Shown piece by piece: positions 8,558-22,049 of a stretch of 23,913 bases of DNA (position 1 is its first letter; every line of letters begins with the position of its first letter). Origin of the DNA: a virus. Below the pieces are notes generated by a model that saw nothing but the letters and a program-made list of their open reading frames with translations, searched no databases and had not been told where the DNA came from. The position numbers and the translations under genes are program-made. The DNA is taken from positions 1-23,913 of the IMG/VR virus record IMGVR_UViG_3300047121_000359, one strand, 5' to 3'.

Positions 8558-8977
8558 GTGACGGACGAAGCGACACAGCACCCTAGGCCGTCGCCCATCA
8601 GCGGCGTGCCGCCCCCGGTCGAGCACTACTGGCAACCGGGCCAGTCCGGCAACCCCGGCGGCCTGTCCAAGAAGCGCCGGATCTCGAACGCGATGGAACG
8701 CCTGCTCGACCTGAGCATGGCCGAACTCGACAGCTACGAGCCGAAGACCGTCGCCGAGGGCCTGGCGCTCGCGATCATCCGCAACGGCTCGATGGACCCG
8801 CGCTTCACGACGCACGCGCTCGAACGCACCGAGGGCAAGGTCGCCGACACGATCCGCCACGAGGGCGGCCCGCAGCCGCTCCAGATCATTCTGGCCGAAG
8901 CCAAGCGGCCGACAGACCAACCCGACGCCGAAACGATCCTGCGCGATCCTGCGCAGTCTGGTGACCAGCCCAGCTAA
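8558..8977 (+). CDS. DUF5681-containing protein, possible small terminase or packaging accessory
   Basis: 139 residues from a GTG preceded by GCGAGG. Residues about 24-38 carry YWQPGQSGNPGGLSKKRR, the signature of the DUF5681 N-terminal region found in many phage and prophage proteins near terminase genes. A helical stretch (ISNAMERLLDLSMAELDSYE then EGLALAIIRNGSMDPRFTTH) follows, then an acidic tail. Its position at the head of the late module, before TerL, fits a role in DNA recognition for packaging. No clear HTH motif is visible. The upstream ATG at 8525 would place the start in a hairpin loop and is not favoured. Confidence 0.55.
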   Translation: MTDEATQHPRPSPISGVPPPVEHYWQPGQSGNPGGLSKKRRISNAMERLLDLSMAELDSYEPKTVAEGLALAIIRNGSMDPRFTTHALERTEGKVADTIRHEGGPQPLQIILAEAKRPTDQPDAETILRDPAQSGDQPS

Positions 8978-8984
8978 CCCAACC

Positions 8985-10094
8985 ATGCCGCGCTTCCGCT
9001 ACTGGGCCGCCCGCCTCCCCTGGATTCGCCCGATCCGCACCGGCTTCTTCGACTCGCTCGGCTGCGCGTTCGCCGCCGCCGTCGCGCTCGTCCTGCTCGT
9101 GCTCGCCGTCGGCCGCGCCGACTCCGCCCCCGCCATGCCGACGCCGATCACGCTCACCGCCTGGGCCTACCACCCCGACCCGTCCGGACCGTCCGCGACG
9201 TTCCTCGTCGATCGCACCGTGGCGCCGACGCTCCCGTTCCGGCCGTGGCGCATGGTGCTGGCCGGCGGCGGATTCGCTCCCGGCAGCGGCGTCGCGCCGA
9301 CGACGTACACGCCCGGCACCGATGCGCTGATCGACCACTGGCACGCGCGCGGCGACGTGGTGATCTTCGTCGGGTACACCGTGGCCGACTCGAACTTGCC
9401 CGGCGGCGGCGCGTTTGACCCCGCGCTGTGGACGACGATCGCGCCTGCGCACCTCGCGATCAACCCGGCGTCGATCACGTCGCGCCACGGCGAGGGCGAC
9501 ATCGTGCACGCGATCCAGTCGCTCCGGTACAGCGGCATCCCCGGCATCCCCGACCTCGATCGGCGCGATGGTCGCGGCGTCGTGTTCGGCAAGTCGGCCG
9601 GGTCGCTGCTCGCTTGGTGGGTTGGCGGCGGGCGGGATCGCGCCGATCCGCTCGCGTTCCGTGACCGGTTCCGCGTGTCGACGACCGTGGCTGCGACGAT
9701 CCATCACCCGACGATCGTGCACTTCTCGGCGCTGCCCGAGACGTGGGTGCAGAACCACTACGCCGACGCGTCTGGCGTGCTCCCGGCCGCACTCGGCGAC
9801 GTGCCGGACGCGACGCTCGCGCACGGCTCCGTCCTGCGCTGGGGCTACACCGCGCAGCCCCCGGCGTTCTGCTCCGCGCCCGAGCCGCAGCAGTTCCACG
9901 GGTCGCACAACTGGCAGAACTTCCAGCACGTGCTGAACACGACCGACCTGCACCCGATCGACCACGTGTTCGCCGCGGCGATCATGCCCGGCGCGAACAC
10001 CGGCAGCGTGTACCTCGAACCGAACCAACCGATCGGCGACGCGCACGCGGCACGTGCGGCGTGGGTCGACGCGATCGAGGCGGCGCTCCAATGA
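8985..10094 (+). CDS. Membrane-anchored alpha/beta hydrolase-like protein with intact nucleophile elbow
   Basis: 369 residues. A hydrophobic segment at about 28-43 (AFAAAVALVLLVLAVG) after a basic N-terminus suggests a signal anchor. The rest has the order of an esterase-type alpha/beta hydrolase: an oxyanion-loop-like VLAGGGFAPGSG at about 91-102, then GVVFGKSAGSLLAWW at about 198-212 with the GxSxG elbow (Ser204), and later His-containing loops (FHGSHNWQ, DHVFAAAIMPG) that could supply the catalytic His. Its substrate is unknown; a surface polysaccharide or lipid is possible. It is oddly placed between packaging genes. Its middle resembles the N-terminal part of the fusion protein at 20541-22049. 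A GTG at 8961 is an alternative start. Confidence 0.55.
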   Translation: MPRFRYWAARLPWIRPIRTGFFDSLGCAFAAAVALVLLVLAVGRADSAPAMPTPITLTAWAYHPDPSGPSATFLVDRTVAPTLPFRPWRMVLAGGGFAPGSGVAPTTYTPGTDALIDHWHARGDVVIFVGYTVADSNLPGGGAFDPALWTTIAPAHLAINPASITSRHGEGDIVHAIQSLRYSGIPGIPDLDRRDGRGVVFGKSAGSLLAWWVGGGRDRADPLAFRDRFRVSTTVAATIHHPTIVHFSALPETWVQNHYADASGVLPAALGDVPDATLAHGSVLRWGYTAQPPAFCSAPEPQQFHGSHNWQNFQHVLNTTDLHPIDHVFAAAIMPGANTGSVYLEPNQPIGDAHAARAAWVDAIEAALQ

Positions 10095-10461: not shown

Positions 10462-10663
10462 CTTCGACACGTCCCCCGCGATGCAACGCGCCGCGTTCGA
10501 CGTCGCACGGCGTGACTCCGCGATGGGCCGCGGCGTCGACGTGCAGCGTGTGGCCGATGCGCTGACGGCCCAGGGCTACCGGACCTCGGCGCGCACGGTC
10601 GATCGGTTCCTGCGGCGGGCGCACCCGGAGCTGTTCAACAGGAAGCCGCACTCGACAGCGTGA
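10433..10663 (+). CDS. Small HTH-like protein preceding TerL
   Basis: 76 residues. After a flexible start (MTTKPGPASDFDTSPAMQRA), residues about 35-66 (VDVQRVADALTAQGYRTSAR then TVDRFLRRAHPEL) have the spacing of a helix-turn-helix: AxALTxxGYxTSxRTVxRFLRRAH. This is the kind of N-terminal domain seen in small terminases and in phage regulators. It overlaps TerL by GTGA and the preceding gene by 29 bases. It may be the true DNA-recognition (small terminase) partner of TerL, in competition with the DUF5681 protein upstream. Confidence 0.45.
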   Translation: MTTKPGPASDFDTSPAMQRAAFDVARRDSAMGRGVDVQRVADALTAQGYRTSARTVDRFLRRAHPELFNRKPHSTA

Positions 10664-12744
10664 TCCAACTCCGCCGCGAGTTCCTGCCGAAGCAACTCGC
10701 GTTCATCACCGCGACCGATCCGAACGTCCTCTACTCGGGCTCGGTGCGCGCGGGGAAGACCTACGCGCTGTGCACGAAGACAGCGATGCGCGCGTGCGTC
10801 CCCGGCGCGCGTGAGGGCCTGTGCCGCAAGCACCGCGTGACGCTCACGGCGACGACGCTCGTCACGTTGCTCCAGGGCGACGGCATGAATCCGCCCGTGC
10901 TGCCGCAGGGCCAGTACACGCACAACAAGGTCGATGGCGTCATCCGCATCAACGGCGGCGGCGAGATCGTGTACTTCGGCCTCGACGACCCCGCGAAGAT
11001 CGGCTCGCGCTCGCTCACGGGCGTTGCGATCGACGAAGCGGCGGAGGTCACGGAAACCGACTGGGACATGCTCCAGACCCGGGTATCGGTCGAGGTTCCC
11101 GGACTGCCGCGCATGGTCTACGGCGCGTGCAACCCGGGGCCGCCGATGCACTTCCTGGCGAAGCGGTTCGGGCTCGCTGCCGGACACCGCGCGATGGCCG
11201 GCCACGTCGTGTTCCGCACCCAGTCGGCCGAGAACTGGTTCCTGCCGCGCGACTACCTCGACCGCATCGACACGCTGACGGGCGTCGCGCGCCGACGGCT
11301 CGTGCTCGGGGAGTGGTGCGGCGCGGAGGGCCTGGTCTATGACAACTGGGACCGCGAGCGCCACGTCCGCGTGCGCGAGGGGCCGTGGGTGCGCGCGAAG
11401 ATCGGCTGCGACGACGGCTTCTCGAACCCGTTCGCCGCGCTCCTGGTCGGCGTCGATTCGGACGGCCGGATGCACGTCATGGCCGAGCGGTACTCGCCGG
11501 GCCTGTCGCTGGCGCAGAAGATCGCGCGCATCCGCGAGCTGGTCGCGATCGAGCCGAAGGCGGCGCAGGAGCTGATAGTGTTCGATCCGTCGGCGGCGCA
11601 GCTCCGCGCCGAGGTGAGGCTCGCCGGGTTCGCGACCGCCGCGGCCGAGAACGACGTCGACGCGGGCATCCAGGTCGTGCGCCAGCGGCTCGAAGATCCG
11701 GGCGACGGGATGCCGCGGCTGACGGTCGACCCGAGTTGCGAGAACCTGATCCGTGAGTTCGAGACGTACGAGTACGCCAAGGATCCGAGTGGGGTCCAGA
11801 AAGACAAGCCCAAGAAAGAGAATGACCACGCGTGCTTTGTCGGGTCGACGCGTGTTCGAACGCGCGAGCGCGGTTGGGTGCGCATCGACTCAGTGGCGTG
11901 CGGCGAGCACGTGCTTACGCCGACGGGGTTCGAGCCGGTGCTCGGTGCTGGTCAGACCGGCGTGCGCGATGTCGTGGAGTTCGAGTTCGAGTCCGGGAAT
12001 CGGGTGACATGCACGCCGGATCATCGGTTCCTTACAGATGAATACCGGTACGCGTCGCTATCCTTCGGGGATGGACGATCCGAAGGTGGTGACGGCGACG
12101 CGGCAGGACTGGAACGGGGTGCGCTGGTACCGGTGCGGGTTCTACTTCACGCGGGAGAAGAAGGGCGGCGGCCGGATGGCGCTACACCGCGCGGTGTGGG
12201 AAGCGGCGAACGGCCCGATTCCCGATGGCTACCACGTGCACCACGTGAACGAGGACCGGGCGGACAACCGGTTGGCGAACCTCACGATGATGCTCGGGTC
12301 CGAACACATGCGGATGCACATGACGCCGGAGCGGTGCGAGGCAGCGCGCGTGCACATGCTCGCCAACGTCATCCCGAAAGCGCGCGCGTGGCACTCGACC
12401 GAAGCGGGGCGGCAGTGGCACGCTCAGCACGGCGCGGACGTGTGGCAGAAGCAGCCCTATCGCACGCTCGTGTGCGAGATCTGCGGCAAGGACTTCCAGA
12501 CGCGTGTGAGCGAGAAGCGGCAGCGGTTCACGTGCTCGAACAACTGCAAGATGACCCGGTATCGGCGGCTGAACCGCGAACGGATGCGGCAGTACGGGCG
12601 CGAGTACGCGGCGCGGCGGAAGTCTTCTGCCTCGCAACCCCCTCCCGCTGCTTCGTGATCGAGGGCGGGTTCGTCGTTCACAACTGCGACGCGCTGAAGT
12701 ACCTCGCGATGTCGCTCCGCCGCGCGTCCCTCGGCATTGCCTGA
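10660..12744 (+). CDS. terL: Terminase large subunit interrupted by an intein
   Basis: 694 residues as translated; 410 after removal of a 284-residue intein. The ATPase has Walker A GSVRAGKT (27-34) and Walker B VAIDEA with D125/E126. The RNase H-like nuclease has catalytic Asp candidates in GCDDGFSNPFA (D251/D252), VFDPS (D309) and the NDHA|CDAL motif (D389). TerL pumps DNA into the prohead and cuts concatemers. The intein lies between A391 and C676, inside the third nuclease motif, so no active nuclease can form before splicing. The start is a GTG overlapping the previous stop. Extein length is normal for this family. Confidence 0.85.
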   Translation: MIQLRREFLPKQLAFITATDPNVLYSGSVRAGKTYALCTKTAMRACVPGAREGLCRKHRVTLTATTLVTLLQGDGMNPPVLPQGQYTHNKVDGVIRINGGGEIVYFGLDDPAKIGSRSLTGVAIDEAAEVTETDWDMLQTRVSVEVPGLPRMVYGACNPGPPMHFLAKRFGLAAGHRAMAGHVVFRTQSAENWFLPRDYLDRIDTLTGVARRRLVLGEWCGAEGLVYDNWDRERHVRVREGPWVRAKIGCDDGFSNPFAALLVGVDSDGRMHVMAERYSPGLSLAQKIARIRELVAIEPKAAQELIVFDPSAAQLRAEVRLAGFATAAAENDVDAGIQVVRQRLEDPGDGMPRLTVDPSCENLIREFETYEYAKDPSGVQKDKPKKENDHACFVGSTRVRTRERGWVRIDSVACGEHVLTPTGFEPVLGAGQTGVRDVVEFEFESGNRVTCTPDHRFLTDEYRYASLSFGDGRSEGGDGDAAGLERGALVPVRVLLHAGEEGRRPDGATPRGVGSGERPDSRWLPRAPRERGPGGQPVGEPHDDARVRTHADAHDAGAVRGSARAHARQRHPESARVALDRSGAAVARSARRGRVAEAALSHARVRDLRQGLPDACEREAAAVHVLEQLQDDPVSAAEPRTDAAVRARVRGAAEVFCLATPSRCFVIEGGFVVHNCDALKYLAMSLRRASLGIA
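11833..12684 (+). mobile_element. Intein in TerL with an out-of-frame HNH endonuclease gene
   Basis: 284 codons from Cys1 (TGC 11833-11835) to the terminal HN (12679-12684), followed by Cys+1. Block A is CFVGSTRV and block B is GNRVTCTPDHRFLT with the TxxH pattern at positions 61-64. Blocks F and G are VFCLATPSRCFVIEGG and FVVHN. Between blocks B and F the intein frame reads as about 190 residues of Arg/Gly/Ala-rich, disordered-looking sequence without endonuclease motifs. The same DNA in the +1 frame encodes an HNH protein. Protein splicing should join DHA to CDAL. The long non-conserved insert may be tolerated as a loop, or splicing may be impaired; the sequence cannot decide. Confidence 0.85.
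12071..12658 (+). CDS. HNH homing endonuclease nested in the TerL intein, +1 frame
   Basis: 195 residues from the ATG at 12071 (an ATG at 12038 would add 11). The start VVTATRQDWNGVRWYRCGFY is followed by LHRAVWEAANGPIPDGYHVH and HVNEDRADNRLANLTMM, the H-x(n)-HH...N...N pattern of phage HNH_3-type homing endonucleases. A C-terminal zinc finger (CEICGKDF then FTCSNNCK) follows. These enzymes are normally free-standing or in introns and cut intein- or intron-less alleles to spread the element. Here the gene overlaps the TerL intein in another frame and stops within the block F codons. The ribosome site is weak (GGGG next to the ATG), so expression may depend on TerL translation. Confidence 0.8.
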   Translation: MDDPKVVTATRQDWNGVRWYRCGFYFTREKKGGGRMALHRAVWEAANGPIPDGYHVHHVNEDRADNRLANLTMMLGSEHMRMHMTPERCEAARVHMLANVIPKARAWHSTEAGRQWHAQHGADVWQKQPYRTLVCEICGKDFQTRVSEKRQRFTCSNNCKMTRYRRLNRERMRQYGREYAARRKSSASQPPPAAS

Positions 12745-12814
12745 GTCCCCGGATTGACAGCCCCGGGCCGCTCGCCCCTTGACCGGCCAACCTCGGCAGG
12801 TTCCAAGCTGTCCA

Positions 12815-15793
12815 ATGGGGCGTCGTGTCCAGCCGAAGAAGCCTGCCGCCACGAAGGGCGCGTCCGTGCCGAACCGGCTCGCGACGTACGGCGAGGCGAT
12901 CTACGAGCTGCACGAGCTGGGGTCGCTGTTCCACAACGCGAACCTCGGCGTCGCGTCGCAGGTCAAGGACCCCTACAAGGACTCCGCGCTCGTGTTCGCG
13001 TGCATCCGCGTGCGCGCGCAAGCGGTCGCGACGGCGCCGCTCGTGCTGTACGCGAGCACGAAGGACGACGCGCAGACGATCGAATCGGGGCCGCTGTTCG
13101 ACGTCCTCGCGAACCCGAACCCGTGGATGTCGTGGCGCCGCTTGGCGTACATGACGCAGGTCTTCAAGGACCTGCCCGACGGCGCGTGCTACTGGCTCAT
13201 GTACGGGCCGGGCGGCGAGTACCTGAAGCCGGGCGCGATCCCGGTCGAGATCTGGCCGCTGCGTGGCGCGCACTGCAAGCCGGTCGACGATCCGATGAAG
13301 ATGATCCCGGCCGAGTACGAAGTCTCGGTGTCGGGCAAGTCGAAGCGCATCCCGGCCGCGGCGATCCTGCCGATCCTCGACATGGACCCGTCCGCGTACC
13401 TGCGCGGGTTCAGCCCGTCGGCGGCCGTCGCGTCCGAAGTCGAGACGCTGTTCGGGCTCTCGCAGTACGACCGGAAGATGGCGGCGCGGCTCGGCCTGCC
13501 GTCGGTCGTGATGCAGACGGACGTCGAGATGCTCGACGAGCAGATCAAAGCCGCGCAGAGCAAGCTCGAAGAACGCCTCGGCCCGCACAACGCAGGCAAG
13601 CCCGTCGTCGTCGGCAACGGGTTCAAGCCCATCGCGATCGGTCAGACCGCCGCGGACATGGGCCACAAGGACCTGCGCGAGTGGGAGCGCGACATGATCC
13701 TCGCCGCGTTCGGCGTTACGAAGCCGCTGCTCGGGATCACTGACGACGTGAACCGCGCGAACGCGGACGCGGCGGTGCAAGTCTTCTGGCGCGGCACTGC
13801 CGTCTACCTGCTGCGCGACCTCGAAGACGACATCCAGACGCGCTTCGTGCGCACGCGATCGGGACCGGAGCGCGCGTACGCGTGCGGCTTCGACACGTCG
13901 ACGGTGCCTGCGATGCAGGAGAACGCGACGGAAATGATCGCGAACCTGAAGGTTCTGAGCGACATGGGCGTTTCGGTGCCGATCGGCGCAAAGCTGCTCG
14001 GCTGGGATGTCGACGAGGAACTGCTCGAACAGATCGAAGCGCAGGCGGAGGCGAAGAAGGCGGCCGACGCGGAAGCGCGCGCGGCTGCGGCTGCTGCGTT
14101 CGCGGGCGGGAGCGTTGCGGACGACGACGAAGAGGACGAGCAGCCGCAACCGCCGCAGCAACTCGCCCGCCCCTCCAAGGAGCAACGCGAGAAGCAACGC
14201 GCCGCAATCCTCGACGAGATCGCACCGCTCGAAGCGCGGCTCGCGAAGAAGATCGCCGCGACGCAGCGCGACTACGTGCTCGCGTTGCGCAAGGGCCTCG
14301 ACAAGTACGCGAAGCTCGTGGCGCGCACGCCCGCGACGACGCTCGCGACGCCCGAGGAAGCGCTTGAAGCGGTGCTCTCGCTCGCGCCGCCGTTGAGCGA
14401 GTTCACGCCGCAGCTCGCGAAGGAAGCGCGTCCGATCCTCGAAGCGATGTTCAAGAAGAGCGCAGAGGCGCTCGCGGCCGAGCTGGGCAAGTCGCCGCTG
14501 TCGATCACCGGCCCGGAAGCCGCGATCCTCATCACGAAGCGCGTTCAACTCGTCGAGGGCACGCTCACGACGCTCTCCGCCGAAGTGACCGACGCGCTCG
14601 CGAAGGCGCTCGTTGACTCGGCCGGGTTCTCGTCCGCATCGCTCGCGGAAGCCGTGCAAGGCGCGCTCGAAACGATGCGCGGCGAGATCACGCACAAGCT
14701 CGACAACCTGCCGCAGCGCGCCGGAACGATCGCGCGCACGGAGACGGCATCGGTGCAAGGCGCGGCGCGTCACGCCGAGATGGTTGCGCAGGGCGTCGAG
14801 CGTCACGAGTGGATCAGTGACGTCGACGACGCGACGCGCGACAGCCACGCCGAACTCAACGGCAAGGTCGTGAAGGTCGGCGAGTCGTTCCGCGACGACA
14901 TCACGCTGCGCTGGGTCGGCGATCCGGCGGCGCCGATTGGCGAAACAGTGAACTGCTTCCCTGGCGATGTCGTGGTCGCGTCCGCGGGTGTGCAGCTCGG
15001 CTATCGGCGGATGTACGACGGGCCGATGTTGCGGCTGTCACTGCGGTCGGGTCGCGTCCTGTCCGTCACCCCGAATCACCCACTGCTGACCGAGCGTGGG
15101 TGGGTTGCAGCGCGCGACTTGAATGCGGGAGACAACCTCATCCGCTGCCGCGGGCTGGATGTCGCTCGCCCGTCGAACCCAAACGTACAGCGAGGTCCAG
15201 CCGCGTTCAGCGAGGTATTGGACGCGCTCCACATGGTGGGGGATCGTCGCGGGGTGCGCGCTTTGGACGTGAACTTCCACGGCGACGGGGAAGGCGGCGA
15301 GGTCGATGTTGTACGGCCCGAGCGCGAGCTGCTGTTCGGTCGGCACGCAGCGCTCAGCGAGCAAGTCGCGCAAAGCGAGTTCGCCCCCGCCGACAGCGAC
15401 ATGCGATCGTTCGCGCCATTGCGCGATGCGGGCGCTTTGCGTTTGCGCGCGCGGTCGACCACGGAGCGCGACATTGGCGGCGAGGCATCGCGCTTGGCGG
15501 TCCTCGAATGTCGCACGCGACGCGGCGACGACCGCAGCTTCGGACCTGTTGCGCGGGCGCACTCCCGCCGCGATCAAGCGTCGGCGAACCGTGCCGCGGT
15601 CGATGGCGAGGGCATCAGCCAGCGCCTTCTCGGATTCACCGGCGAGGTATCGACGGATCAGGTCGTCGGTGTCGATTCCCGTGAGTTTCGCGGTCATGTC
15701 TTCAACCTCCAAACGCGGTCAGGGTGGTACGTGGCCGATGGGATTGTAGCACATAACTGCCGTTGCGCTGTAGCGCCCGTCATCGAGGACTGA
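12815..15793 (+). CDS. Portal-MuF fusion protein interrupted by an intein
   Basis: 992 residues as translated; 724 after removal of a 268-residue intein. Residues 1 to about 390 are an HK97-family portal (SALVFACIRVRAQAVATAPL, LRGFSPSAAVASEVETLFGL, AFGVTKPLLGITDDVNRANA), which forms the dodecameric DNA entry ring. A charged linker (DDDEEDEQPQPPQQ) and a long helical region follow. Residues about 560-713 are a MuF-type head protein (GTIARTETASVQGAARHAEM, then WISDVDDATRDSHAELNGKV), ending in the NCRC motif split by the intein at residue 714. Portal and MuF are usually separate neighbouring genes, so this is a natural fusion. The 36-base upstream extension to a TTG is disregarded. Confidence 0.8.
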   Translation: MGRRVQPKKPAATKGASVPNRLATYGEAIYELHELGSLFHNANLGVASQVKDPYKDSALVFACIRVRAQAVATAPLVLYASTKDDAQTIESGPLFDVLANPNPWMSWRRLAYMTQVFKDLPDGACYWLMYGPGGEYLKPGAIPVEIWPLRGAHCKPVDDPMKMIPAEYEVSVSGKSKRIPAAAILPILDMDPSAYLRGFSPSAAVASEVETLFGLSQYDRKMAARLGLPSVVMQTDVEMLDEQIKAAQSKLEERLGPHNAGKPVVVGNGFKPIAIGQTAADMGHKDLREWERDMILAAFGVTKPLLGITDDVNRANADAAVQVFWRGTAVYLLRDLEDDIQTRFVRTRSGPERAYACGFDTSTVPAMQENATEMIANLKVLSDMGVSVPIGAKLLGWDVDEELLEQIEAQAEAKKAADAEARAAAAAAFAGGSVADDDEEDEQPQPPQQLARPSKEQREKQRAAILDEIAPLEARLAKKIAATQRDYVLALRKGLDKYAKLVARTPATTLATPEEALEAVLSLAPPLSEFTPQLAKEARPILEAMFKKSAEALAAELGKSPLSITGPEAAILITKRVQLVEGTLTTLSAEVTDALAKALVDSAGFSSASLAEAVQGALETMRGEITHKLDNLPQRAGTIARTETASVQGAARHAEMVAQGVERHEWISDVDDATRDSHAELNGKVVKVGESFRDDITLRWVGDPAAPIGETVNCFPGDVVVASAGVQLGYRRMYDGPMLRLSLRSGRVLSVTPNHPLLTERGWVAARDLNAGDNLIRCRGLDVARPSNPNVQRGPAAFSEVLDALHMVGDRRGVRALDVNFHGDGEGGEVDVVRPERELLFGRHAALSEQVAQSEFAPADSDMRSFAPLRDAGALRLRARSTTERDIGGEASRLAVLECRTRRGDDRSFGPVARAHSRRDQASANRAAVDGEGISQRLLGFTGEVSTDQVVGVDSREFRGHVFNLQTRSGWYVADGIVAHNCRCAVAPVIED
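15038..15697 (-). CDS. Antisense Vsr/EDxHD-like homing endonuclease inside the MuF intein
   Basis: 219 residues. The N-terminus is an HTH (DDLIRRYLAGESEKALADAL, then AIDRGTVRRRLIAAGVRPRN). The C-terminal domain has TEQQLALGPYNIDLAAFPVA followed by VEVHVQSAHP and YLAERGWTSLYVWV. E121, D132, E141 and H143 follow the E...D...ExH pattern of Vsr-like PD-(D/E)XK enzymes, including the EDxHD family associated with intein-linked homing. The ATG at 15697 is preceded by a perfect GGAGGT seven bases upstream. A five-codon extension to a TTG lacks such support. The reading frame covers intein blocks B to F on the other strand. Mere openness of this frame is expected in GC-rich DNA; the motifs and ribosome site are the evidence. 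Confidence 0.75.
   Translation of the reverse strand: MTAKLTGIDTDDLIRRYLAGESEKALADALAIDRGTVRRRLIAAGVRPRNRSEAAVVAASRATFEDRQARCLAANVALRGRPRAQTQSARIAQWRERSHVAVGGGELALRDLLAERCVPTEQQLALGPYNIDLAAFPVAVEVHVQSAHPATIPHHVERVQYLAERGWTSLYVWVRRASDIQPAAADEVVSRIQVARCNPPTLGQQWVIRGDGQDATRPQ
15705..15710 (-). promoter_or_regulatory. Antisense Shine-Dalgarno site within intein block F
   Basis: The plus-strand ACCTCC reads GGAGGT on the minus strand, seven bases before the antisense ATG at 15697. On the plus strand the same bases encode Asn-Leu-Gln within the block F segment VFNLQTRS, so the site is compatible with the splicing motif. It is one of the best ribosome sites in the window and decides the start of the antisense endonuclease gene. 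Confidence 0.65.
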
Positions 15794-20182: not shown

Positions 20183-20544
20183 TGCCGACGACCATCGGGA
20201 CCCTGGACTCGTGCTTCGAGTCGTCGCAGCTCACGTACCAGCGCTGGCAGGTCGCATCGAACGGCCGCGGCGCAAGGTTCGTGCGGCAGACGAACACGAG
20301 CGCGAGCCCGAACACGAACGAGGTCGAGGTGCGCCGATGGGCGGTGCGCGCCGAACTCGCCGGGCAGGCTCAGTTCGAGGACCTGGAATCGCAGTGGGAG
20401 CTGTCCCGCGGCGGCGTGTTCTCGCACGTCTGGACTCCGCCCGACGAATCGTCTCCGATCACGGTCCGCATCGCTTCGTTCCAACAGGTCTACGCCGCGC
20501 ACGGTCGCTTCGAGATCGCGATGGAACTGGAGGAGGATCTGTGA
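20182..20544 (+). CDS. Small tail-completion-like hypothetical protein
   Basis: 120 residues starting MPTTIGTLDSCFESSQLTYQ. It is beta-rich with RRWAVRAELAGQAQFEDLES, VFSHVWTPPDESSPITVRIA and FEIAMELEEDL. The position between the gp10-like gene and the tail-terminator fusion corresponds to a neck or tail-adaptor protein, but I see no diagnostic motif. Its last codons contain GGAGGAGG, which serves as the ribosome site of the next gene. Confidence 0.45.
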   Translation: MPTTIGTLDSCFESSQLTYQRWQVASNGRGARFVRQTNTSASPNTNEVEVRRWAVRAELAGQAQFEDLESQWELSRGGVFSHVWTPPDESSPITVRIASFQQVYAAHGRFEIAMELEEDL

Positions 20545-22049
20545 GCGCGCCCTGGACCCCGAGCCACACGAACGTCAGCTACCCGCCGGGCGTCGGCACC
20601 ATCGCGCCCACGGAGCGGTGCAACGTGTTCGTGCCGGACGGCTCGGCTCCGAGCGGGGGGTGGCCGGTCCTGCTTTGGATCGAAGAGACCGCGCTCACCG
20701 CCGGCGCGCGTCAGACGTCGATCGCGGCGGGCCTCAACATCGGGCACCAGTGCCTTGCGCGCGGGATCGCGTTCGTCTCGGCCACGGTCGCGCGCGTCGC
20801 GACGTCCGGTGCCGAAGCGGTCACGGGCGGCGGGCTGTTCGATCGACCCGGACAGGCGCGGTGGAACTCGGGCACCTACCCGAGCGCGTGGAAGAGCGCC
20901 GTTCACCTCGTCCAGTGGGCCCGCTCGCAGGCCGCGACGTACGGGTTCGACGCGTCCGACGTGTCGATCGGCGGCGAGCTGGCGGGCGCGGACCTCGCGC
21001 TGTGGGCCGGTGCCGGTCCCGACTGGCCCGCGGTCGGCGGCTCGGCTCAGTTCCGATCGGGCGTCTCGCACCGCGCGCAGGGCGTCGTCGCGCTGCGGCC
21101 GTGCGGCATGTTCCCGGCCGTGGCGATCGCGACTGCGGCCGTCGGGTTCGCGGAGAACGGCGCACCGGGCACGCCTGCCGCCGAACTGGGCGACGTTGAC
21201 CCGCTCGACAAGCTCGGCGCCTCGCCGTGCTCGGTCATGTTCGACGCGGCCGGGGTGCGCACGTCGAACGCGTCGCAGCCGGTGTTTGTGTGGGGCTCGG
21301 GCGCGGTCGGGTCTGCGGACTTCACGCTCGCCTCGTCCGTGCCGACGCTCTCGAACACGCTCACGACGACGGGCGACGCGTGGGGCGCGCACATGCTGCG
21401 GCGGCAGCTCATGGGGCTCGGTGGCGGTGCGTTCCGGTTCCATGAACGCAGCTCGACCGCGCTCCACTCGGCCCGCTACCAGGACCGCAACGGCTACGCG
21501 ACCGAGATCCTCGCCGACGACGAAGACGTGTACGCACGCGCGGCGCAGTGGGTCGCAGGTGTCGCGGGCAACGCGCCGCCGATCGAGCCCGCTGCCGAGC
21601 GCGTCGTGCGCAACGTCATGGCGTCGCTGCTCAGTGTGCGCGCCGGGGCGACGTACTGGCACACGATCTTCAACGTGAACCGTGGCCCGTCCACGCAGGC
21701 GCTCAAGGACTCCGCGCTCCCGAACGTGTGGGTGACGTCGTTCGGCACCGATGCGCAAGGCGCCGGTCGAGACCAGACCGCGACGAACGAGCGCACGCTG
21801 CGAATCCAGGTCGACGGGTACATGCTCGCGGGAACGCAGCACGGCCCGGCTCGCGCTGAGCGTCTCGCGCATGACATGGAGCGCGCGATCCTCGCAGACC
21901 CGACGCAGTGCGGGCTCGCGATCGACACACTCGTGACCGACGTCGCGATCGGCATTCCTCCGACGGATCAGATGCAGAGCTTCGGCGCATCGTTGACCGT
22001 CGAGGTTCGATACCGGACCGTTTCCACTGACCTTCTGCTCACGACCTGA
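20541..22049 (+). CDS. Fusion: inactive alpha/beta-hydrolase-like domain + tail terminator
   Basis: 502 residues from a GTG with GGAGGAGG upstream. Residues about 1-343 resemble an esterase-type alpha/beta hydrolase: WPVLLWIEETALTAGA (oxyanion region, normally HGGG), RWNSGTYPSAWKSAVHLVQW, then DVSIGGELAGADLALWAG. At the nucleophile elbow GESAGA of such enzymes the Ser is replaced by Leu147, so the domain looks catalytically dead, unless another residue serves. Residues about 350-502 (AERVVRNVMASLLSVRAGAT, LPNVWVTSFGTDAQ, RIQVDGYMLAG) have the plan of gpU/tail-terminator proteins that cap the tail tube. The fusion is the unusual point. It follows the neck genes and precedes the tail tube gene, as a terminator would. 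Confidence 0.55.
   Translation: MSAPWTPSHTNVSYPPGVGTIAPTERCNVFVPDGSAPSGGWPVLLWIEETALTAGARQTSIAAGLNIGHQCLARGIAFVSATVARVATSGAEAVTGGGLFDRPGQARWNSGTYPSAWKSAVHLVQWARSQAATYGFDASDVSIGGELAGADLALWAGAGPDWPAVGGSAQFRSGVSHRAQGVVALRPCGMFPAVAIATAAVGFAENGAPGTPAAELGDVDPLDKLGASPCSVMFDAAGVRTSNASQPVFVWGSGAVGSADFTLASSVPTLSNTLTTTGDAWGAHMLRRQLMGLGGGAFRFHERSSTALHSARYQDRNGYATEILADDEDVYARAAQWVAGVAGNAPPIEPAAERVVRNVMASLLSVRAGATYWHTIFNVNRGPSTQALKDSALPNVWVTSFGTDAQGAGRDQTATNERTLRIQVDGYMLAGTQHGPARAERLAHDMERAILADPTQCGLAIDTLVTDVAIGIPPTDQMQSFGASLTVEVRYRTVSTDLLLTT

Follow-up and report, generated by a model that had tools for sequence, protein, structure and literature searches.

The stretch of DNA analysed here (the window; 23,913 nt) is an IMG/VR record, that is, a metagenomic virus fragment, with a GC content of about 67%. 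In it, terL and a portal-MuF fusion gene are each interrupted by an intein, and the DNA of each intein also encodes a second protein in a different frame or on the opposite strand. Scans with exact peptides of single proteins returned almost solely one identical contig, perhaps from the same sample; the relatives described below were reached through alignments. The features are as follows.

10660..12744, + strand: terL (large terminase), intein-bearing; Pfam Terminase_3, PHROG terminase
11833..12684, + strand: TerL intein, 284 codons; Cys1 at 11833, TPDH at 12013-12024, block F, C-terminal HN, Cys+1 at 12685
12038..12658, + strand: nested HNH endonuclease ORF; HNH_3 (PF13392), E=1.9e-15; ATG at 12038 or 12071
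12815..15793, + strand: portal-MuF fusion gene with the second intein; Phage_portal 5e-39, Phage_Mu_F 6.8e-9
14954..15757, + strand: MuF intein, 268 codons; Cys1, TPNH at 15068-15079, block F HVFNL at 15695-15709, terminal HN, Cys+1
15038..15697, - strand: predicted antisense Vsr/EDxHD-like homing endonuclease gene; ATG at 15697, stop at 15038-15040; HTH and nuclease
15705..15710, - strand: Shine-Dalgarno GGAGGT, 7 nt before the antisense ATG; reverse of block F codons N-L-Q
15743..15751, - strand: extended -10 TGCTACAAT of the antisense gene; reverse of the I-V-A codons just before the terminal HN

Anatomy of the two inteins

The TerL ORF is open end to end as one continuous frame (10660-12741). 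Its intein lies in a motif of the TerL nuclease domain, DHA^CDALKY, and ends with an Asn at 12682-12684. Relatives carry the intein at the same site, and in intein-less relatives the motif DH..DALRY is unbroken. Against the Pfam Intein_splicing model this intein scores a weak 17.9 bits, under the cut-off of 35.8; its identification thus depends on motifs and relatives. The MuF intein scores 38.5 bits, above the cut-off, and because portal and MuF share one reading frame, it interrupts a fusion of two head proteins. C1, H42 and N268 are invariant in the MuF intein alignment (A6). AlphaFold2 predicted two confident Hint halves for this intein (blocks 71-96 and 82-93), joined by a stretch of low confidence (<50 across most of residues 123-230).

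A reading of the window made earlier from its letters alone (the sequence-only reading) had placed both inteins, called their motifs and stated that neither has an in-frame endonuclease. The positions and motif calls are correct: both ORFs are open, and both inteins have Cys1, block B (TPDH or TPNH), block F, HN and Cys+1. Likewise, no in-frame endonuclease domain was found in either intein.

Position 4 of block F is a Cys (VYCL, VFCL) in many TerL inteins, including that of the window (12620-12684) and those of loci L106-L113, and residue 1 is also a Cys. The block-F Cys resembles class 3 inteins, and the splicing chemistry may be different. Three MuF inteins (L038, L040 and L041) have an apparent Ala in place of Cys at position 1, which suggests that some members of this antisense-nuclease family splice as class 2 or 3 inteins. 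Elsewhere in the window, a long ORF without a Pfam match lies just upstream of the terL region (8961-10094), and an ORF of the structural module (20211-22049) has weak alpha/beta-hydrolase matches.

Nested genes and their registers

The ORF within the TerL intein DNA had been read as an HNH gene in a different sense frame, and its HNH_3 match bears this out; the protein also matches PHROG 15471 (6.8e-29). It is on the same strand as terL, with the TerL frame at HNH frame +2. Among 87 HNH relatives, the window included, 57 are nested in a TerL intein, 43 with TerL at HNH+1 and 14, the window among them, with TerL at HNH+2. A further 12 lie between the halves of a split TerL intein, 14 are free-standing beside an intein-less terL, and there are four others. 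In none of the 87 is the HNH in frame with the TerL intein. The two registers in different phages, and the split and free-standing forms at the same locus, go beyond what the sequence-only reading had noted. When relatives were instead sampled by the splicing domain only, 54 of 56 distinct TerL inteins had a nested out-of-frame HNH and the other two were split; this sampling, here and for MuF below, covers the closest relatives of each query rather than all inteins.

The nested, split and free-standing states are intermixed on the HNH tree, whose support is weak. It is plausible, from these arrangements, that the split or nested forms arose when a free-standing HNH with terL as its target inserted into an intein located at that target. 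In Yuaviruses and others (L011, L015, L016, etc.), a free-standing HNH directly follows an intein-less terL. L182 has a TerL intein and its HNH as a separate downstream ORF. No Shine-Dalgarno sequence is present at the HNH start of the window, and across the nested HNH genes such sequences are modest in number (10 of 57, vs. 3 and 2 in the other frames).

The antisense protein of the MuF intein has no name from Pfam alone, and the profile of its family was required. That profile matched 3hrl (8.7e-6), I-Bth0305I (PDB 3r3p; 0.0016) and, weakly, Vsr. REase_MTES_1575 is matched by 53 of 66 members, many of which also match N-terminal HTH families, and seven residues, including D132 and E141, are invariant in all 66 sequences. 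The AlphaFold2 model of the nuclease has a pLDDT of 94, and its best solved fold according to Foldseek is again I-Bth0305I (3r3p), with a probability of 0.99 but an E value of only 0.03. By profile, predicted fold and active-site acidic residues, the protein qualifies as Vsr/EDxHD-like, in agreement with the sequence-only reading of an opposite-strand gene of this kind.

The codons of this minus-strand gene lie exactly opposite those of the MuF intein. A tblastn search with the antisense protein returned 110 phage records, e.g., from Gordonia, Mycobacterium, Pseudomonas and Salmonella (Guernseyvirinae) phages; beneath the matches listed, the annotation mostly names a hypothetical protein or the head morphogenesis/MuF gene. 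In viral contigs, a scan by alignment for the MuF nuclease yielded 157 relatives, of which 80 were kept. The register was counted in 91 relatives (84 loci, the window and six bacterial-genome loci, one of them from a Firmicute), all found by nuclease similarity. In all 91, the nuclease is antisense and codon-aligned and the intein frame is free of stops; in none is the nuclease in frame with the MuF intein. The remaining two antisense frames contain 2-28 stops each. Three further phages agree with this register, including Escherichia phage Snoke, whose annotation marks the intein and leaves the antisense gene unmarked. Sampling by the splicing domain only gave an antisense nuclease in 70 of 71 distinct MuF inteins. 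The exception, L242, is a shrunken mini-intein from which most of the nested gene is gone, with the mirror of the active site (FHGDG..EI) kept; by its sequence, it is a fossil of the antisense gene. The sequence-only reading had taken normally in-frame nucleases in homologous loci as a sign of sequencing indels in the window. Such indels are ruled out, as the nuclease is never in frame in relatives.

High GC alone could give one such ORF, and chance was therefore tested on relatives. In the MuF register, a stop arises in the intein frame solely opposite the nuclease codons TTA, CTA and TCA. With expected stops computed from local codon usage and the background taken from exteins, 313 of these mirror-stop codons were expected and none was seen in 67 representatives of <80% identity; the corresponding log10 P of about -161 is overstated because relatives share ancestry, and product P values generally overstate independence. 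The same is seen for TerL: 134 stops were expected and none found in the +1 register (40 representatives), as were 127 and none in the +2 register (10 representatives). For the TerL overlap of the window alone, 3.8 stops were expected (P=0.016).

Divergence follows the codons of the nucleases. In 25 of 25 disjoint TerL pairs the third codon positions of the HNH, which fall on first or second positions of the intein codons, are the most divergent. In 25 of 25 disjoint MuF pairs the third position of the nuclease, which is the first of the intein, diverges more than the first position of the nuclease; the totals are 2716 (third), 2119 (first) and 1507 (second). Identity across the MuF overlap is 52% for the nuclease vs. 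38% for the intein frame. Where the nuclease C-terminus mirrors block B the pattern is reversed, and the intein frame is the conserved one. Further, an intein string that recurs in relatives, FHGDG..EVDVV, is the mirror of the active-site stretch of the nuclease, GPYNIDLA..VAVE. Lack of conservation of the nested frames would have spoken against the sequence-only reading; as judged from these comparisons, the registers in TerL and MuF are conserved and under protein-level selection.

Expression signals and alternative alleles at the MuF site

The antisense gene appears to take its start signals from conserved intein motifs. Block F (G-H-V-[YF]-[DN]-L-Q), read on the opposite strand, is GGAGGT, seven bases and ATG. 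Of 45 distinct loci, 33 begin the antisense gene with ATG and 7 with GTG, and a Shine-Dalgarno match of at least 4 bases is present in 41. The Leu codon of block F is CTC in 25 of 32 loci, vs. 6.6 expected. Loci that seem to start elsewhere mostly do start at block F and have an extra HTH.

An antisense sigma70 promoter was found in the intein C-terminus in 34 of 60 loci, vs. 1.8 expected when the same peptides were recoded with local codon usage; the thresholds were set after the motif had been seen, but the contrast is nonetheless large. In 24 of the 60 the -10 box occupies one fixed place, about 32 bases from the start, and is preceded at a distance of about 17 bases by a -35 box that often reads TTGACA. 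In 14 loci, including the window, a -10 that is usually extended lies over the codons preceding the terminal Asn, 51 bases from the start. As controls, 7 of 1320 antisense extein stretches matched, as did two sense-strand stretches of the same region in the 60 loci. The intein peptide by itself does not account for how often the promoter and the ribosome-binding site are retained.

The MuF site is also found without the intein. Across MuF, Salmonella phages SE1 and GRNsp27 align at about 93% identity, and Gordonia phages Fosterous and ChadMasterC at about 97%; within each pair, the insertion that sets the two apart is precisely the intein. The empty alleles read HPN-CRS and VIN-CRC, and the motif HPN^CR(C/S) is restored in GRNsp27 and ChadMasterC. 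This presence/absence polymorphism points to mobility. In Gordonia phages Nordenberg, Lennon and Barsten (L185, L188 and L190), a different intein occupies the same site, with a codon-aligned LAGLIDADG-like ORF on its opposite strand; in phages nearly identical to this group, the site is either empty or filled by the Vsr-like allele. Differences by codon position in the Nordenberg-type ORF are 12/7/45, and identity is 93% for the nuclease vs. 72% for the intein frame. No Pfam family matched this ORF, and a LAGLIDADG_3 search of that phage was empty; the LAGLIDADG-like reading rests on I-MsoI (E 0.003), on remote homing-endonuclease matches (2e-6 to 5e-6) and on the codon-position counts. At one and the same site, then, an unrelated second nuclease has come to lie in this antisense register. 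To the two unrelated nuclease folds of the sequence-only reading, which our analysis confirmed, the MuF site adds a third, LAGLIDADG-like one in another of its alleles.

Proposed mechanism and relation to known systems

We propose that these are homing inteins whose splicing and homing reside in two separate proteins made from overlapping genes, a reading that we consider highly probable. The anatomy, the registers, the selection in two frames, the promoter and ribosome-site signals and the empty sites are features of the sequences themselves; expression, splicing, cleavage of empty sites and homing are what we infer from them. The TerL and MuF frames would be translated straight through to give an intein-bearing precursor. 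The intein, two Hint halves and a mostly disordered peptide that shadows the nuclease, would excise itself by splicing. The same DNA would encode a free-standing endonuclease, a sense-frame HNH in terL and an antisense Vsr/EDxHD-like protein in MuF. Translation of the HNH would begin inside the TerL message, where start signals are weak, whereas the MuF nuclease would be transcribed from the sigma70 promoter that lies within the intein C-terminus and translated from the ribosome site and start codon of block F. When phages co-infect, a terL or MuF allele that lacks the intein would be cut by the corresponding nuclease, and the break, mended on the filled allele as template, would acquire intein and nested gene together.

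The sequence-only reading had also suggested that endonuclease expression could be regulated apart from the host protein. For MuF, the antisense promoter, ribosome-binding site and start codon lend this sequence support; for TerL no such support was found. With host-type RNA polymerase acting on the antisense promoter, the MuF nuclease need not await late expression, and this promoter might even provide early nuclease from within a late gene. It is reasonably likely that the homing endonuclease of late-gene phage inteins is commonly encoded by a separate gene that overlaps the intein, that three or more nuclease families have reached this state in three or more registers, and that in MuF the reverse strands of block G and block F supply the sigma70 promoter and the ribosome site and start, respectively, such that homing is timed apart.

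A chance high-GC ORF is ruled out by the low-GC relatives, the stop tests and the divergence tests. A related explanation is that the nested ORFs are shadows produced by high-GC codon bias, and that the truly conserved sequence is an intein linker. The window is indeed GC-rich, and a codon-aligned antisense frame is the easiest to keep open, with only TTA, CTA and TCA forbidden. But the registers hold at 31-49% GC, with the TerL registers persisting down to 31%; the MuF-nuclease relatives, bacterial and prophage loci included, span 40-69%, and GC bias is therefore not the cause. Further, divergence and identity favor the nuclease codons, the nuclease domains match known families, and the middle of the intein is predicted to be disordered while the nuclease is modeled with high confidence. 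We thus regard the shadow explanation as barely credible.

Programmed frameshifting could instead join nuclease to intein in one fused protein that performs both jobs. This could in principle occur for the sense-strand HNH of TerL, which in the window lacks a Shine-Dalgarno sequence, but it is impossible for the antisense MuF gene. Moreover, TerL has two registers, and the same HNH family occurs free-standing or between split-intein halves; frameshifting is very unlikely. It is also improbable that the nested nucleases are decayed passengers whose mobility is past and whose frames are kept only because essential genes forbid stops. Any frameshift would indeed break terL or MuF as well, and shrunken L242 retains only remnants of the nuclease mirror. 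Against this stand the invariance of the catalytic residues, the purifying selection visible by codon position, and a promoter and ribosome site retained beyond the needs of the intein peptide. Overlapping genes for separate splicing and homing proteins therefore remain our preferred explanation.

The double coding is real, general and kept in hundreds of related phages, and it seems to have gone unnoticed. An intein that lacks an in-frame nuclease is normally classed as a mini-intein no longer capable of homing. In many phage inteins, however, a nuclease may persist in another frame, where a survey of protein sequences only would miss it. These loci also provide sizeable families of genes that overlap completely and lend themselves to statistical tests; in one, a long antisense overlap, each gene has an identifiable job. 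They suggest a route by which a selfish gene housed in a late structural gene may be expressed apart from that host. The free-standing, split and nested HNH forms at one TerL site offer a handle on the origin of homing inteins, and the Gordonia presence/absence pairs make homing directly testable. Our survey revealed no earlier account of an intein with a nuclease gene in a different frame or on its other strand; as the survey covered open-access papers, priority is uncertain.

Classical homing inteins have much in common with the present ones: a Hint domain, location in conserved motifs of essential genes, an endonuclease and empty-site alleles. Intein nucleases have been described in review as fusions, translated as part of the intein (PMC3943268), and nested HEN domains are found at a conserved insertion site (PMC6801210). 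The TerL inteins of mycobacteriophages lie in the ATPase domain and have an in-frame LAGLIDADG nuclease (PMC5050341); here, the intein is in the nuclease domain of TerL and the HNH is never in frame.

The MuF nuclease shares its nuclease domain, by profile and fold, with I-Bth0305I. The latter is intron-associated (the 3r3p chain is named “Mobile intron protein”), whereas the MuF nuclease has an N-terminal HTH and is antisense to an intein. In 2009, as cited in PMC12350094, Dassa et al. reportedly described fractured genes, in which a free-standing nuclease lies between the halves of a split intein, and the origin of the EDxHD family. The likeness lies in a locus that encodes nuclease and splicing activity as distinct proteins, and in the EDxHD/Vsr family; indeed, the 12 TerL relatives noted above have the split layout. 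Fractured genes, however, are split by the nuclease; in the window TerL and MuF are both continuous ORFs, and their inteins are contiguous with the nuclease overlapping them.

The nearest precedent is the ShiLan element, an out-of-frame HNH on the sense strand of phage DNA methylase genes, whose patchy distribution suggests homing (Arsenault, Gosselin and Gogarten 2025, PMC11855218). As in TerL here, the HNH is out of frame on the sense strand and the host frame stays open. As far as described, the ShiLan insertion has no splicing domain that could be detected and no antisense counterpart (PMC11855218), whereas a complete intein surrounds the HNH of the window. Compared with that account of ShiLan, the present system has complete inteins, three nuclease types and one antisense arrangement with its own putative promoter.
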